From Clostridia bacterium (GTDB taxonomy: Bacteria > Bacillota > Clostridia > Christensenellales > Aristaeellaceae): a stretch of DNA of 63,013 nucleotides. The stretch's first letter is position 1. Each line of letters starts with the position of its first letter. Shown piece after piece: positions 53,811 through 59,566 of this stretch. Location of the stretch: NCBI GenBank assembly GCA_017532155.1, contig JAFXJP010000004.1, forward strand, positions 1 through 63,013, read 5' to 3'. Position numbers and translations under genes: made by a program. Under the pieces are notes generated by a model. It was not told the DNA's origin. It was given only the letters and a program-made list of their open reading frames with translations, and made no database searches.

Positions 53811-53832
53811 AAAGCCGGCCTGAGGGGCCGGA
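53806..53832 (-). terminator. Intrinsic terminator of the cobalamin/ECF operon
   Basis: On the minus strand CCGGCC CCTCA GGCCGG followed by C and seven T, directly after the S-component stop. Confidence 0.93.
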
Positions 53833-53834
53833 TT

Positions 53835-54521
53835 TCAGATGCCGTATTTTATGCGTACGCGCTCCAGTTTCTCTCCAAAGGGTTTGGCAAGAAACCACAG
53901 AAACGCAAAATTTGAAATGCTGTACAGCGCAGTATGCGGCAGCGCCGCTACCACAGACGCCATATACAATTGCCAGTTCAAGCCGCCGTCATACCACATG
54001 ACCGTCCAGATATCCATGACAAAGGAATATATTACGCCTGACAGCACGCCATATATCATTAAGAGCGCTTTATGCCTTTTCAGCAGTCCGCCCATCAGGC
54101 CCGCGATAAAGCCAATCATCCCCCAGCCAAGCATCTGAAAGGCTGTCCACGGCCCTTGTCCAAAGTAAAAATTAGACAGCACCGCCGCCAGCGCCCCTAC
54201 CAGAAATCCCGCTTCGCCGCCCAGGTACATGCCGGCAATGATCGTCAGCGCCGTAACCGGCTTAAACAGAGGGATAAAGCGCCCGGCAATGCACAGCGCC
54301 GTCAGCACCGATACAATCACAAGCCGGCGCGATCCTGTCTTTTTCCGCTCAAATCCGGCAAAGAACAAAAGAACGGCCAGTATCGCTACGCCCATCGAAA
54401 TCAGCAAATGCCGCTTTGCGCTGAATACCGTTGCGCCAAGCGCCACCAGCAGCGGAATCAAAACGCAGGGAATAACATAGCGCATAATATCTCTGATACG
54501 CTTATTCTTTATTACCATCAT
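53835..54521 (-). CDS. ECF transporter substrate-binding (S) component, probably for cobalamin
   Basis: The product has 228 residues; the ATG at 54521 overlaps the ATPase stop (ATGA). Six membrane helices are expected. FKPVTALTIIAGMYLGGEAGFLVGALAAVLSNFYFGQGPWTAFQMLGWGMIGFIAGLMGG is typical of a group of ECF S components. It captures the vitamin and docks on the T/ATPase module coded just upstream. The substrate assignment to cobalamin comes from the B12 riboswitch heading the operon and the transcobalamin-like genes, not from residues here. Confidence 0.82.
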   Translation of the reverse strand: MMVIKNKRIRDIMRYVIPCVLIPLLVALGATVFSAKRHLLISMGVAILAVLLFFAGFERKKTGSRRLVIVSVLTALCIAGRFIPLFKPVTALTIIAGMYLGGEAGFLVGALAAVLSNFYFGQGPWTAFQMLGWGMIGFIAGLMGGLLKRHKALLMIYGVLSGVIYSFVMDIWTVMWYDGGLNWQLYMASVVAALPHTALYSISNFAFLWFLAKPFGEKLERVRIKYGI

Positions 54522-56149
54522 ATGCGCGCCTTTCCGTTCACCCGGCACAGGTGCGCTGCGTCTTCCACTGTCACGGCATTGTCAAAAATCCCCCGCGTCA
54601 TGCGGCTGATTGCCGTAGTATAGAAGCTGTTCTGCGCAAAAAACGCGCGCGGCATGCCCTCTGAAATGACATTCCCTCTGAAAAACAGTGCGCATCTGTC
54701 AGCACAAAGCGCAGCAAATTCCACATCGTGCGTCACAATCACGATCGTCATGCCATCCTGCTTTAAGGCCTTAAGAATCTCTATCAGCTTCATTTTGGAA
54801 GCTGCATCAATGCCCTTTGTCGGTTCGTCCATCAGCAAAAGCTTCGGCCGGGTTGCAAGTACTTTCGCCAGCGCTACCAGCTGCTGCTCGCCGCCTGACA
54901 AATCATACGGATGCCGGTCAAAGTAGGGTTTAAGATCAAAGGGCAATAGCGCCATTCCCTCTTCTGCGTCCTTCAACTCCTCCCGCACCGTATTGCACAA
55001 AAATACCGTCTGCACATCCTGCGGCAGCATCGTCAGACATTCGCGATACAGACTCTGATTATGATACTCTTTTATTTTTTTGCCAAACACCCGCACCATT
55101 CCGCTGTAAGGCTTATTCAGTCCCGCCGCAACGGTAAGCGCCGTTGTCTTGCCAGAGCCATTGCCACCCAGCACACAATAGATTTCATTTTCATATACCG
55201 TTGCATTCAGGCCTCGCAGCACATCCGCGCCATGCCTGTCGTACCGGAAATAAACCTCTCTCATTTCAAGCGCTGCCTTGTCATGCGCAGTCTCCTGCTC
55301 TTTTGGTAAAGCGCGCATCTGCGCATTGGTCCAGGCAGAGACATATTCCCGGCCCTCACGCACCGTCAGCGGACAGCTTCCCTCGCCGTTCACGGCTTGA
55401 AACAGACGGGACGGCGAAGGCATTACGCTATGAAGCGCTGCATCCTGCAGCATTCGCGGTACCACTTCTTTTGGCGCGCCATATGCCGCCACGCTTCCCT
55501 GGCTGATCACCAGCAGTTTGTCGCAGATCGGGATAACCTCCTCCAGCCGATGCTCCGTCATAATGACCGTCAGCCCCAGCTCCCGGTTGAGCTTTTGCAC
55601 CGTCGCAATAAAGGCGCTGGCCGCGATCGGATCAAGCTGCGCCGTAGGCTCATCCAGAATCAGAACGTCGGGCTGCATCACCATTACCGAAGCCAGATTC
55701 AACAGTTGCTTCTGGCCGCCCGAAAGCGTCGAAACATCCTTGTCAAACCAGCTCTCCATATCAAAGTAAGCGGCCATCTCCGCAATGCGCCTGGCAATCA
55801 CCGGCTGCGGCACCTGCATATTCTCAAGCCCAAACGCCAGTTCATGCCACACTTTATCCGTTACAATCTGCTGCTCCGGGCGCTGCATAACATATCCGAT
55901 CTTATACGCAGCTTCACGCTCAGACATTTCATCGCGCAATACGCCGTTATAGCGAATTTCACCCTCAAATTGCCCAAGGGGTGCAATTTCTCTTTTCAGG
56001 AGGCGAAGAAGCGTTGATTTACCGCTGCCCGTAGCGCCGCACACCGCAATGAACGCTCCCTGATCGACCGAAAATGAAATATCCCGCAGCGTTTTTTCTT
56101 GGATGCTTGGATAAGCAAAGCTTACATGCGATACATCAATACGCGCCAT
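54518..56149 (-). CDS. Fused double ATPase of an ECF transporter (EcfA-EcfA')
   Basis: This 543-residue protein holds two complete ABC ATPase domains. The first (about 1-235) has CGATGSGKSTLLRLL, LSGGQKQLLNLA and VLILDEPTAQLDP. The second (about 290-520) has LGGNGSGKTTALTVA, LSGGEQQLVALA and LLMDEPTKGIDA. It powers import through the T component. It overlaps the T component upstream by 28 bases and the S component downstream by 4, so the three are tightly coupled. Confidence 0.93.
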   Translation of the reverse strand: MARIDVSHVSFAYPSIQEKTLRDISFSVDQGAFIAVCGATGSGKSTLLRLLKREIAPLGQFEGEIRYNGVLRDEMSEREAAYKIGYVMQRPEQQIVTDKVWHELAFGLENMQVPQPVIARRIAEMAAYFDMESWFDKDVSTLSGGQKQLLNLASVMVMQPDVLILDEPTAQLDPIAASAFIATVQKLNRELGLTVIMTEHRLEEVIPICDKLLVISQGSVAAYGAPKEVVPRMLQDAALHSVMPSPSRLFQAVNGEGSCPLTVREGREYVSAWTNAQMRALPKEQETAHDKAALEMREVYFRYDRHGADVLRGLNATVYENEIYCVLGGNGSGKTTALTVAAGLNKPYSGMVRVFGKKIKEYHNQSLYRECLTMLPQDVQTVFLCNTVREELKDAEEGMALLPFDLKPYFDRHPYDLSGGEQQLVALAKVLATRPKLLLMDEPTKGIDAASKMKLIEILKALKQDGMTIVIVTHDVEFAALCADRCALFFRGNVISEGMPRAFFAQNSFYTTAISRMTRGIFDNAVTVEDAAHLCRVNGKARI

Positions 56150-56988
56150 TTGACCGCCTCCTTTCCACAGATGAATACCGGCATACAGGCAAGCATGCCA
56201 TATGCAACATAACCGATCGTCGCCCTGACTGTAAGCGGCGCTATCTGTAGCAGCGGATAGTATACAACTGCTCTGTCAAAGATCGCACTCAGCGCACACA
56301 GTACAAGCGATAAGATTAAAAACAATGCATCCTCAGTGCGCCAACGAAACAGCGAATACCGCGAGCGTCTGCCCGTGCCATAGCCCCTGGCCGTCATGCT
56401 GTCTGCAGTTATGATGCCGTTTTCCAGCGTCCACGTCACCATCACAGAAAACACCCGCAAGCCTGCCTTAAAGCTATCAACGATATTATCTTCTTTATAT
56501 AACCCAAGCGCCTTTTGTGCCTGCGATACTTTTCGCGCCTGCGTTCCAAAGAGCGGCACATAGCGCAGCGTCATGGAAAGCAGAAGGGCAAGCCTTGGCG
56601 ATATACCGCCAAATACATATAGCAGCTTATCGCTCGTCATCACAAACGAAAACGCCCTGAACCAGTATAATACCGCCACAATCATCCCCGCCGCAGACAA
56701 GCCATACAGGCACGCCTCCAGCGTGACCGGATTATCATTCATCACAAATAACACCGTTGCGCCATTGTGATTGAATATCGGATTCATCAGCGCCATCACA
56801 ACAAATAGCGCTATCGTATAGCCATGCGTCTTCCAGCCCGTCAAGCCATGCAATGCAAAATGCAGCGCCAGTGCCCCCATCAGCGAGCAGCACAAAAGCA
56901 CCGGATCGTTGCTGAACATCACCCGGCCGCTAACCAGAAGAAAATAGATTGTCAAAGCAATTGGATTGAGCCTTTCAATCGCCCGCAT
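56122..56988 (-). CDS. ECF transporter transmembrane (T) component, CbiQ/EcfT type
   Basis: This 288-residue protein has several membrane helices and the T-component coupling motif ADSMTARGYGTGRRS (Ala-Arg-Gly), which contacts the ATPases, as well as LRYVPLFGTQARKVSQAQKALG. It links the S component to the fused ATPase. It starts 11 bp after the transcobalamin-like gene. Confidence 0.9.
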   Translation of the reverse strand: MRAIERLNPIALTIYFLLVSGRVMFSNDPVLLCCSLMGALALHFALHGLTGWKTHGYTIALFVVMALMNPIFNHNGATVLFVMNDNPVTLEACLYGLSAAGMIVAVLYWFRAFSFVMTSDKLLYVFGGISPRLALLLSMTLRYVPLFGTQARKVSQAQKALGLYKEDNIVDSFKAGLRVFSVMVTWTLENGIITADSMTARGYGTGRRSRYSLFRWRTEDALFLILSLVLCALSAIFDRAVVYYPLLQIAPLTVRATIGYVAYGMLACMPVFICGKEAVKWRVLMYRM

Positions 56989-56999
56989 ATTTCATGTCC

Positions 57000-58523
57000 T
57001 TATTTCAAATCCTCGCCCATGGCGCAGGTATACAGCCATTCAACAGCATCGCCGTCCTGCAGCTGATAGCTGTCGCAGCCCTCCGAGAAGGATTCTCCGT
57101 TGACAAAATACAGCCAGCCGGACAAATCGCCAAAGTCGTACTCATAGATATTGGCAATGCCGGAAACATATCTGAATCCTTCAGCGCCGGAGCTTTCCGT
57201 ATGCAGTGCATATTGCCTGGCAGCCTGAATCAGTATGTCGTGCGCCGTCTCACCCTTTGCCAGCGTAAATTCCGTCCGGGGCAAAATTACGCCGTCCGCA
57301 GGAATGTGCGCTGCTGTCGTTTTGCCTTTCAGCGTGTCACAGCGAATGGACATTGTCACCGTACCGATCGGTTCGCTTTTTGTTATTGCCGTAACAGAAT
57401 AATAATCTGCCGCCGACTGAATATCAATCAGGTTCACCGCGCAGATCAGCGCAAGGGCTATGACAACAACCGCCGCAAAGTTTTTGATATTGCGTTTTTT
57501 CAAGACCAGCAGCGCTACGCACACAAGAACTGCCACGGAAGTAATCCCAACAGTTGCAACCGTCTTATAATCCAGCGTTTTTTTAATATCGCCCGTCGAT
57601 ACGCGTTCGCTGTCACGAATCACAAAGATGCTGCCGTCGCCAGACAGCATTTCGGCATGCGCGGCAGCTGCCAGATAGCTTTGAACCGTTGCAGTGCGGT
57701 TCATTGGTCCGCCCGCTGTATGGCTAAAGCTTTTATCAGGCAGCTGATACATCCCCAGCGCGTCCAGCAGCGTATTTCCATTCTTTACAAACCGCGCATC
57801 AGTCAGCGCATCGATATTCATTGCAGACAGCGCCAGCCAAACCTGCGCTGCACTTTCTGCATTGGGCTTGCCATAGCTCATAAAACCGCCGTCCGGCAGC
57901 TGAATTCCCGAAAGATACGAAATGGCGCGATCTATCGCAGTATGCACACGATCATGGCTCGCGTAATACGGCGCAAGCGCCTGTACCGTCATCGCCGTCA
58001 CGTCTGCATCCGACACTGCGCCAGTAATCACCCAGCCGCCGTCAGCAAGCTGCAAAGAAAGCAGCTTATCAATACACGCCTGCACTGTCGCCGTCTCGCA
58101 AGTGATGCCGTTATTCATCAGATGCAGCCCGTATACCCAGCTCATGATCCCCTGCTTGCCAACCGTATCCGCTAAAATCTCCGCCGCAATTGCATCATCG
58201 CCGCTGACCGTAACGAGCGTTAAAGCGTATTTCTGCCTTGTCACAGCAGATCTCACTTGATTCTTTTGCAGATACTCTGTCAGAGCCGCGCAATAGGCAG
58301 AAGAATCATATGCACCGCGCTGCATCAGCGCAATTGCATACCATTCCGCCCCGCCCGTCGGCTGTTGTGACAACGTATGATCCAGCCATTCCTGAACGTT
58401 TTTTGCCCCTGCAGCTTTCAGTTCGTACGACAGAATATCATCTTCCAGTTGTATCGTCTGGCCCTGTGCCATTGTGCAGATCAGCAGCAGACATGTCAGG
58501 CATGCCCATAATCTTTTCATCAT
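57000..58523 (-). CDS. Membrane-tethered transcobalamin-like protein (toroid plus DUF4430)
   Basis: This protein has 507 residues. A signal peptide (1-21) is followed by an alpha/alpha toroid of the prenyltransferase/terpene-cyclase type (about 25-300) with three clear repeats (LQLADGGWVITG at 157, IQLPDGGFMSYG at 207, YQLPDKSFSHTA at 259). Two membrane helices follow (322-341 and 347-367) joined by LKKRNIKN, which should face the cytoplasm. A C-terminal DUF4430 domain (375-503) has LAKGETAHDILIQAA, SGWLYFVNGESF and LQDGDAVEWLY. Toroid plus DUF4430 are the alpha and beta domains of transcobalamin. By the positive-inside rule both lie outside. In a B12-riboswitch ECF operon, it is very likely a cobalamin or corrinoid capture protein. 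It overlaps the preceding stop by one base. Confidence 0.85.
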   Translation of the reverse strand: MMKRLWACLTCLLLICTMAQGQTIQLEDDILSYELKAAGAKNVQEWLDHTLSQQPTGGAEWYAIALMQRGAYDSSAYCAALTEYLQKNQVRSAVTRQKYALTLVTVSGDDAIAAEILADTVGKQGIMSWVYGLHLMNNGITCETATVQACIDKLLSLQLADGGWVITGAVSDADVTAMTVQALAPYYASHDRVHTAIDRAISYLSGIQLPDGGFMSYGKPNAESAAQVWLALSAMNIDALTDARFVKNGNTLLDALGMYQLPDKSFSHTAGGPMNRTATVQSYLAAAAHAEMLSGDGSIFVIRDSERVSTGDIKKTLDYKTVATVGITSVAVLVCVALLVLKKRNIKNFAAVVVIALALICAVNLIDIQSAADYYSVTAITKSEPIGTVTMSIRCDTLKGKTTAAHIPADGVILPRTEFTLAKGETAHDILIQAARQYALHTESSGAEGFRYVSGIANIYEYDFGDLSGWLYFVNGESFSEGCDSYQLQDGDAVEWLYTCAMGEDLK

Positions 58524-59197
58524 CAGTTAACCGTTACAATGCACACCGGCGCTACCAGCACCTGCTCAGAAGACTTTGCGCTGATCACATAAACACCAGG
58601 CTGCTCCAGCTTCAGCGTCACGCAGCCATTTTCATCCGTCACAAATTCACTTTCAACGCCGTCCACCACAAGACAGGCCCCCGCCACCGGCATCACAACA
58701 GGATTCCATGCCGCATCAAATGCCGCCGCATTCAGTTTCAGCGTCGTTTCTTCACCGGCTGCAATCATCATTTCATCCGCATCAAAATAGCAGTAGGTAT
58801 CCGACCAGGTATCCAGATCAGTATACGCATACGCCTTTACATGATCGCCCTCCTGCACAGCGTCCATCAGACTCCAGGCCGAAGCATGATTCAGATAATA
58901 CCCAAAGCTGCCGTTGTTTTCCTCGCCCCACAGCCGCACCAGCGACATGCCATACTCCGTCTGCTCTGCCAGATAGCCATCCGAGCCCTCATATTTTTCC
59001 GCATGCGCGCAGGCAAGCGCATCATGGATCGAAATCACGCCGTCGCCGTCGCTGTCAGAAACAGCAATTTTCTCATGCGCCAGCACAATTTCTCCCGCGC
59101 AGTTTGTAATGGAAACATACACATCCACTCCTTCTGCTAAGCACACCTGCATCATCAGCACCAGCGCCAGCAAAACCATACCCATCTTTTTCATCAT
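58523..59197 (-). CDS. Secreted DUF4430-like protein with EF-hand-like loop, first gene of the B12 operon
   Basis: This protein has 224 residues from ATG 59197, five bases after AGGAGG. A signal peptide (1-22) is followed by a beta-rich domain (25-140) that shares with the next protein's DUF4430 the pattern YYLN...EGDHVKAYAY. A calcium-loop-like DSDGDGVISIHDAL lies at 48-61. A C-terminal Ig-like domain (150-224) ends the protein. No sortase signal or membrane anchor is seen, so it is either secreted or held by a partner. A cobalamin-binding or capture role is inferred from the riboswitch and neighbours. Confidence 0.72.
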   Translation of the reverse strand: MMKKMGMVLLALVLMMQVCLAEGVDVYVSITNCAGEIVLAHEKIAVSDSDGDGVISIHDALACAHAEKYEGSDGYLAEQTEYGMSLVRLWGEENNGSFGYYLNHASAWSLMDAVQEGDHVKAYAYTDLDTWSDTYCYFDADEMMIAAGEETTLKLNAAAFDAAWNPVVMPVAGACLVVDGVESEFVTDENGCVTLKLEQPGVYVISAKSSEQVLVAPVCIVTVN

Positions 59198-59220
59198 TTT
59201 ATCCTCCTTTACAATTGAAA

Positions 59221-59248
59221 CGCCCTTCCGCCGACAGGCAGAAGGGCG
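59221..59248 (-). promoter_or_regulatory. Expression-platform hairpin of the cobalamin riboswitch
   Basis: On the minus strand CGCCCTTCTGCC and GGCGGAAGGGCG form a 12-bp stem with loop TGTC, ending about 12 bases before the AGGAGG at 59203-59208. The tail is TTTCAATTG rather than a T-run, so it could act either as a weak terminator or by controlling access to the ribosome site. Confidence 0.65.
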
Positions 59249-59337
59249 CAACTGTTTCACCAAAATACCGCAGGAAATTCATCCTTGCGACTCTGATAAA
59301 CCGGCTGCACGCTTCTCACCCAATTGTGTTCACCTCA

Positions 59338-59512
59338 AGGATACGGCAGGTCTCCTGACTTATGACGAGCGGCAAACCGCGCGAAAGCACCTTCTCGGAT
59401 TTCTCCAATGGTCCTTGCTTTCTTCTGATCAAATACAGTAATGGTGGTTGTCCCGGATTCCAACCGGGTTCCCTATTAATCTACTCAGCTACAGCTTTTC
59501 GAACCGTATCTT
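59338..59512 (-). promoter_or_regulatory. Cobalamin (B12) riboswitch aptamer
   Basis: On the minus strand the B12 box AAGTCAGGAGACCTGCCGT lies at 59343-59361. P1 is formed by GATACGG (59504-59510) pairing with CCGTATC (59340-59346). The core segment GGGAACCCGGTTGGAATCC, typical of this class, lies in between. The aptamer follows a sigma-A promoter and precedes the surface protein/ECF operon. Cobalamin should switch the operon off. Confidence 0.95.
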
Positions 59513-59537
59513 CGTTATCTGTTCAATTGTCTGTTTC

Positions 59538-59566
59538 ATTGTATCCCAACAATTTACACTTGTCAA
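59538..59566 (-). promoter_or_regulatory. Sigma-A promoter of the cobalamin operon
   Basis: On the minus strand TTGACA (59561-59566), 17 bp, TACAAT (59538-59543), placing the start about 20 bases before the riboswitch P1. Confidence 0.88.

Follow-up and report, generated by a model that had tools for sequence, protein, structure and literature searches.

A cobalamin-riboswitch operon of a Clostridia bacterium with a predicted membrane-anchored toroid-DUF4430 protein beside a CbrT-type ECF importer

Organization of the operon

We analyzed a contig of 63,013 nucleotides (JAFXJP010000004.1, here called the window) from a Clostridia bacterium of the family Aristaeellaceae, whose assembly (GCA_017532155.1) comprises 2.02 Mb in 62 contigs and is 82.5% complete. 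Between positions 53815 and 59566, the minus strand of the window carries, in the order of transcription, a promoter-like site, a riboswitch, a leader, the genes for two predicted surface or secreted proteins, which we call P2 and P1, the T component, fused double ATPase and S component of an energy-coupling factor (ECF) importer, and a terminator-like hairpin (Table 1). Adjoining genes overlap or sit 11 bases apart, as expected from the preliminary description of this sequence, in which all of the genes were read as overlapping or closely spaced members of one operon. The locus is real, conserved and functionally coherent.

The cobalamin riboswitch that had been placed at the head of the operon was recovered over positions 1-189 of the 189 in the Rfam model, far above the gathering score of 31.5 bits, and the assembled genome has no other RF00174 match. 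The leader between the aptamer and P2 folds more stably than shuffled sequences (z-score -3.65, with 1 of 200 shuffles folding equally well), and its hairpin is a possible expression platform for the riboswitch. Since promoter-type matches numbered 8 compared with 6.4 in shuffles, the promoter-like site is suggestive by its position only.

Table 1. Features of the operon in the window (amino acids, aa), with PQQ-like propeller proteins from related regions (L numbers) in the last row
Feature	Position	Strand	Remarks
Sigma-70-like promoter, TTGACA-17-TACAAT	59538..59566	-	11/12 consensus match
Cobalamin riboswitch aptamer, RF00174	59328..59523	-	93.2 bits, full length
Leader, aptamer to P2	59198..59327	-	Strong hairpin GCGCCCUUCUGCC/GGCGGAAGGGCG shortly 5' of the ribosome binding site
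P2, secreted protein, 224 aa	58523..59197	-	Possible DUF4430-like domain, then immunoglobulin (Ig)/CarboxypepD_reg-like part (both sub-threshold)
P1, 507 aa	57000..58523	-	Signal peptide, alpha/alpha toroid, membrane hairpin, DUF4430
P1 toroid domain, aa 23-312 (about 26-295)	57588..58457	-	Sequence and structure searches
P1 membrane hairpin, aa 319-368, turn KKRNIKN	57420..57569	-	Two hydrophobic helices
P1 DUF4430/transcobalamin-like beta-grasp domain, aa 381-507 (about 385-505)	57003..57383	-	PF14478
ECF T component (CbiQ family), 288 aa	56122..56988	-	CbiQ match
ECF fused double ATPase, 543 aa	54518..56149	-	Two ABC_tran stretches
ECF S component, CbrT-related, 237 aa	53835..54548	-	6fnp_A match
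Terminator-like hairpin and T run, operon end	53815..53831	-	Last element of the operon
PQQ-like propeller proteins	L037:8614-11322 (-), L038:6615-8003, L099:8787-11888 (-), L035:2809-6261, L094:8175-11789, L091:14855-18601

The ECF importer

When the S component was compared with all Protein Data Bank sequences at an E-value threshold of 10, a single match was obtained, 6fnp_A (E 4.4e-8). A profile built from 19 S components matched 6fnp at 3.4e-23, with the next match, 4hzu_S, at 1.6e-4, so that this protein is closer to CbrT than to other solved S components. The protein solved in 6fnp is ECF-CbrT, a vitamin B12 transporter from Lactobacillus delbrueckii (PMC5997447). A T component (CbiQ, 37.0 bits compared with a threshold of 25) and ATPases (TIGR04520, 344.3 compared with 315) are encoded alongside the S component. 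The importer thus appears to be a CbrT-type B12 importer for which cobalamin transport is predicted, in agreement with the earlier proposal that the surface proteins feed a B12-type ECF importer.

Cobalt, to which the CbiQ and CbiO labels might point, was set aside as the substrate, the S component being CbrT-like and having no CbiM match in the domain search. Because cobalt operons may also carry a cobalamin riboswitch, it is the S component that bears the weight of the B12 assignment.

Domain architecture of P1

P1 has the build first read from the sequence, that is, a signal peptide, a toroid, a two-helix hairpin and a DUF4430 domain, and its toroid and DUF4430 halves are both strongly predicted to lie outside the membrane. 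The C-terminal domain matched PF14478 with 51.9 bits (cut-off 23.8). A transcobalamin C-terminal clade of the SLBB superfamily was defined by Burroughs, Balaji, Iyer and Aravind in 2007 (PMC1796856), and, taking that account together with PMC4350170, DUF4430 would be the domain of this transcobalamin-like clade. P1 has attributes of the bacterial members of the clade, being secreted, carrying a toroid in the same protein and sharing its operon with CbiO- and CbiQ-like genes.

The animal carriers transcobalamin, intrinsic factor and haptocorrin likewise consist of a toroid followed by a DUF4430/beta-grasp domain in the same order. P1 differs from them in the hairpin between the domains, in a toroid without a Cobalamin_bind match and in its bacterial surface location.

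Relatives and riboswitch linkage

Matches to P1 or to its profile were found in 11 of 60 near relatives, in 56 of 395 genomes and 37 of 143 genera across the order, and in 117 of 398 genomes and 79 of 267 genera across the phylum (window's genome included in each case), many of the last being a lone toroid or a lone DUF4430. Within the window's genus, only 1 of 10 other genomes matched, and in a different arrangement, indicating that the operon is patchily distributed.

To assess the genomic context, regions were picked by protein match and not by riboswitch. Of 56 mapped regions 55 were counted, L009 being dropped as it is cut by a contig end; L039, described below, was never in the set, and G120 and G292 are each present twice. 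Besides the window's own, 55 genomes of the order matched, of which ten with weak matches (best E 1.9e-8 or worse; G033, G046, G059, G102, G109, G127, G166, G244, G367 and G407) were left out of the whole-genome riboswitch search. G227 was included in that search with its region unmapped, and second matches of G148, G198, G258 and G302 lie on other contigs and were likewise unmapped.

T, ATPases and S were all present in 37 regions, the window included, and a cobalamin riboswitch was located upstream on the same strand in 28 of them, with 25 at or above the Rfam cut-off. For ECF regions from genomes searched in full, the riboswitch was present in 24 of 32 compared with roughly 0.07 expected, a rough figure for a 7-kb stretch. 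In L079, L081, L092 and L106 the first open frame is over-long and shares as many as 278 bases with the riboswitch, which was counted as upstream in the first three of these, where full ECF genes are present.

We classified the 37 ECF regions according to the partner encoded with the importer: 28 have a toroid, 4 have a PQQ-like propeller (one of these has both) and 6 have neither. L088 is one of these six, and the toroid of the same genome lies on another contig (L089). DUF4430 keeps its place immediately ahead of T-ATPase-S in regions with a toroid, with a propeller and with neither detected. PQQ-like beta-propeller proteins were observed replacing the toroid or beside it in cobalamin-riboswitch regions (Table 1), and in L035, L037, L038 and L099 the propeller precedes DUF4430-T-ATPase-S. 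The layout of P1, for which the preliminary description had suggested a search in other riboswitch-ECF operons, recurs: 12 of the 37 regions, window included, have a P1-like fusion, 10 of these with a riboswitch (8 above the cut-off), and 11 of the 12, again including the window, share the order P2-P1-T-ATPase-S, P2 not being found in the twelfth.

P1 and its split relatives

In 23 of the 41 toroid regions, the first assigned gene after the toroid gene on its strand is a separate DUF4430 gene; toroid and DUF4430 share one frame in 13 (12 of which are ECF-linked like P1), and the order is otherwise in the remaining 5. Split pairs mostly overlap or lie no more than 61 bases apart, with two at 379 and 707. 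We inspected five of them, and in four (L036, L070, L072 and L084; not L034) each protein has its own hydrophobic anchor, the toroid protein having one hydrophobic helix and then basic residues at its C-terminus, and the DUF4430 protein one hydrophobic helix at its N-terminus. Joining two such proteins would give the hairpin of P1, which therefore reads as a fusion of two neighboring genes whose anchors were turned into a hairpin. A tree of 52 DUF4430 domains requires two changes to account for the 13 that are fused, 11 of which form one group (95/59); these bootstrap values are rough, and the tree is compatible with a single origin of the fused form.

P2

The preliminary description had considered P2 to be a secreted DUF4430-like protein. 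Its secretion is upheld, while its kinship with DUF4430 is suggestive only, profile comparisons reaching 36% and 51% probability over about 30 columns. P2 as a clear DUF4430 protein was thus not supported, and the labels of both its domains are sub-threshold. In the split-gene operons, the first position is often occupied by a DUF4430 protein; for a profile built from 12 of these, the DUF4430 match reaches 99.5% probability. All nine aligned P2 sequences have an invariant DxDxDG.....D loop (D48, D50, D52, G53, D59) similar to those of EF-hands and dockerins; it looks like a calcium loop and may indicate a calcium-dependent secreted partner.

A CarboxypepD_reg-like part, also sub-threshold, occurs in eight of the nine. 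This part of P2 is what one might expect if P1 and P2 were not binding proteins at all and instead acted as wall- or polysaccharide-binding surface proteins, or as assembly factors, beside an importer whose S component binds alone. Fusions of toroid or DUF4430 to Ig, cadherin-like, MucBP and LPXTG parts among relatives are consistent with such a role, as is the description of the L. delbrueckii transporter with CbrT as the binding protein (PMC5997447). Against it stand the retention of DUF4430 directly before T-ATPase-S irrespective of the partner found, the assignment of DUF4430 to the C-terminus of transcobalamin (PMC4350170, PMC1796856), and a 134-aa DUF4430 protein of Lactococcus that has no wall-binding part and is encoded together with B12 genes (see below). 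We consider it improbable that P1 and P2 are non-binders.

Lactobacilli and Lactococcus

Related gene sets were also found on plasmids of lactic acid bacteria, for which the E-values of the toroid and DUF4430 profiles refer to a nominal 100,000 sequences. Plasmid p1_CACC879 of Latilactobacillus curvatus encodes, in order, a toroid-MucBP-LPXTG protein (toroid profile E 1.3e-39), DUF4430, T, ATPase and S, with no riboswitch in the stretch examined. On Levilactobacillus brevis plasmid p47-2, a cobalamin riboswitch (L114:4293-4460 (-), 72.4 bits) precedes DUF4430, toroid and DUF4430 genes, an order shared with the split clostridial operons; the first of these proteins is labelled "DUF5776" and has a C-terminal DUF4430 (E 9e-22), and T, ATPase and S lie nearby on the opposite strand, beyond a transposase. 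On plasmid pMF1298-5 of L. plantarum MF1298 the order is T, ATPase, S, toroid and DUF4430, and no riboswitch was found in the stretch examined. The transporter of this strain has been named CbrV, CbrU and CbrT, within a cobalamin region (PMC6722938). The toroids of the last two plasmids are annotated as "fucose-binding lectin II" (L114:1454-2500, toroid profile E 1.3e-14; L113:9638-10690, E 3.2e-15 and no Pfam match). Judging by these profile matches, that label is probably wrong, and the lactobacillus annotation may be corrected accordingly.

In Lactococcus, plasmid pLLUC147D carries genes for a B12-dependent ribonucleotide reductase (NrdJ), an adenosyltransferase and the 134-aa DUF4430 protein mentioned above, divergent from a "cobalamin ECF transporter" with its S component. 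No cobalamin riboswitch was found here.

B12 requirement of the host

For the anaerobic corrin pathway a single marker gene, CbiD, was surveyed; it was not found in 35 of 43 carrier genomes, including the incomplete genome of the window (the count covers 42 of the 49 genomes searched for riboswitches, plus the window's). The window's genome encodes one protein with a B12-binding domain, which we read as the small subunit (S) of glutamate mutase; it lies beside a MutL-like gene, and the two read as a B12-dependent set. Judging from its gene content, the host is likely a B12 auxotroph.

Proposed function

Taken together, the genes of this operon make it fairly probable that it serves corrinoid (vitamin B12) scavenging, with a surface clamp supplying an importer of the CbrT type and a host that is likely auxotrophic for B12. 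Low intracellular B12 would permit expression, as judged from the riboswitch family. P2 would be exported; P1 would be exported as well and held by its two-helix hairpin, so that toroid and DUF4430 both project from the outside of the membrane. The mouth of the toroid and DUF4430 could then close over one corrinoid, as in transcobalamin. The loaded clamp would sit beside the CbrT-like S component, which would take the vitamin, topple and release it inward with the help of T and the double ATPase, as in characterized ECF transporters. P1 itself would have arisen from a toroid gene with a C-terminal anchor and a DUF4430 gene with an N-terminal one, still separate in many relatives. Within this scheme, the riboswitch, the gene order, the domains, the kinship of S and their association are evident from the sequences themselves; corrinoid binding by toroid and DUF4430 is likely, hand-over from the clamp to S is plausible, and a role of the hairpin in docking is speculative.

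A variant of this route concerns its cargo. The ligand may be other than complete B12, for example cobinamide or another cobamide, using the same clamp and importer; this overlaps with B12 scavenging as proposed here and differs from it in the ligand alone. Cobinamide uptake has also been reported for families of B12 transporters, CbrT among them (PMC6593275), and human TCN1 binds base-less corrinoids (PMC4350170). We regard such a ligand as rather unlikely, if less so than the other alternatives considered here.

Several results weigh against corrinoid scavenging. The predicted structure of P1 is of fair confidence (pLDDT 79, pTM 0.59, parts of DUF4430 below 60), so that the relative placing of the two halves is not predicted. 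Transcobalamin was not among the best 50 structure matches listed for the toroid, which we did not take as exclusion. The 25 Pfam families to which any of 36 toroids had a match at E 10 do not include Cobalamin_bind (PF01122), the family for the toroid of cobalamin carriers; in this search the HMMER filters drop most weak matches. A diverse DUF4430 profile reached transcobalamin-2 at an E-value of only 1.1, whereas ThiS, which is also a beta-grasp protein, ranked ahead of it with 0.23. In both sequence and fold, the best matches of the toroid were to terpene cyclases, namely squalene-hopene cyclase and drimenyl diphosphate synthase, and the toroid could accordingly be an enzyme of terpene cyclase or prenyltransferase type whose place beside an importer is incidental. 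Class II terpene cyclases have a DxDD motif. This motif is intact in none of the 36 toroids, the fourth position being V in 17, I in 10, M in 7, C in 1 and A in 1; furthermore, the toroid comes after a signal peptide, and its genomic and domain context links it to DUF4430 and to B12 genes. We therefore rejected the cyclase assignment, although it is nearest in sequence and fold, and hold an enzymatic toroid to be very improbable.

The genomic linkage also has exceptions that count against corrinoid scavenging. Three of the riboswitches (L068, L071 and L073) fall below the 31.5-bit cut-off and two are near it (L005, 36.1 bits; L006, 33.1 bits), and none was found in 9 of the 37 ECF regions (L008, L034, L069, L088, L096, L098, L100, L102 and L107), of which L008 and L069 are P1-like. 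A search at relaxed thresholds was negative for L008, L034, L069, L085, L088 and L107, and for L096, L098, L100 and L102 no riboswitch was found in their genomes in the whole-genome search, which used stricter filters. CbiD is present in 8 of the 43 carriers. The toroid/DUF4430 pair also occurs apart from ECF genes. In L084, L086 and L087, a riboswitch is followed by DUF4430-like, toroid and DUF4430 genes with no ECF genes adjoining; these genomes have CbiD, and the pair may therefore serve other importers or ligands there. By annotation, Vescimonas fastidiosa pMM35_02 (L110:6840-14233) has DUF4430 and toroid genes followed by MoxR ATPase, DUF58 and transglutaminase genes, and we read the same cluster, without ECF genes, in L093. 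Two V. fastidiosa toroid loci and a Collinsella DUF4430 locus had neither ECF genes nor a riboswitch in the stretches examined. The Vescimonas and Collinsella loci appear to argue against a strict link of these domains to B12 and ECF genes.

Relation to known systems

In ECF transporters, substrate binding is attributed to the S component. A wider proposal, to which we give somewhat less than an even chance, is that many Gram-positive ECF transporters have an extracytoplasmic two-jawed clamp, formed by a toroid or propeller together with DUF4430, which stands over S and hands the corrinoid over directly; P1 would be its most integrated form, with a hairpin that may dock on S. The operon described here would itself widen the view of ECF transporters, from an S component acting by itself to a chain of capture and hand-over.

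Bacterial B12 scavenging of this kind had been anticipated. The 2007 account describes fusions of the SLBB clade to alpha/alpha toroids on either side, to a propeller and to Ig domains; in the same operons it notes CbiO-like and CbiQ-like genes and another secreted protein, paralogous to the first, and it finds the hosts usually without B12 synthesis; it proposed B12 scavenging by these proteins and passage of the toroid/SLBB pair from Gram-positive bacteria to animals (PMC1796856). As this covers the core of the idea in the preliminary description, the novelty claimed there was overstated; its remark that the build is poorly characterized holds insofar as no experiment on any such bacterial protein, and no description of the membrane-linked toroid-hairpin-DUF4430 form, was found in the open-licence literature searched. 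The 2007 prediction predates the naming of ECF transporters. New here are the hairpin fusion, figures for the linkage to the riboswitch, an S component of the CbrT type, the interchange of toroid and propeller ahead of the DUF4430-T-ATPase-S core, and the lactobacillus cases. While the window shares with the SLBB proteins of that account a surface toroid with a transcobalamin-like beta-grasp domain and CbiO/CbiQ genes, it has a hairpin between the domains, a cobalamin riboswitch and a CbrT-type S component, which are absent from the relevant parts of PMC1796856. The window's operon provides concrete candidates for the 2007 prediction and for its claim that animal B12 carriers were taken from Gram-positive bacteria.

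With ECF-CbrT (CbrT, CbrU and CbrV) the window has in common an S component of CbrT kinship, T, ATPases and a cobalamin context, whereas its ATPases are fused and all of its genes lie in a single operon that also encodes two extracellular proteins. The L. delbrueckii setting is nrdJ-cbrS-cbrT-pduO, with no extracellular partner named in the pertinent parts of the source (PMC5997447).

In Bacteroides, BtuG and BtuH bind B12 at the cell surface and supply it to an importer, BtuG being a beta-propeller. Some relatives here resemble this in carrying a PQQ-like propeller instead of a toroid; the difference is that the importer is of the ECF type. Identity of the propeller with BtuG was not supported by sequence, since a search with a single propeller (L038) gave matches to designed propellers and to those of PQQ type and none to BtuG up to an E-value of 1. 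Identifying B12 transport systems in many gut genomes was described as an open problem in a 2019 survey (PMC6593275), and the operon offers a compact, testable case for B12 uptake in gut bacteria unable to make the vitamin.

Other loci

Toroid and DUF4430 gene pairs without adjoining ECF genes were noted in the CbiD-bearing genomes of L084 to L087; in the L085 stretch, no riboswitch was found upstream of the pair. Contig C36 of the window's genome encodes a secreted 308-aa protein with two DUF4430 copies (L039:7765-8691), just upstream of what we read as a BMP-type lipoprotein and a nucleoside-type ATP-binding cassette importer. Given this context and the lack of a riboswitch, L039 was excluded from the system described here, and DUF4430 may serve a second, non-B12 substrate at this site. 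Proteins of about 2000-2300 residues with a toroid in their last third occupy the same operon place in L075:7431-14360, L090:8662-14670 and L092:8480-14467, and that of L075 also has Ig-like, cadherin-like and DUF4430 domains.

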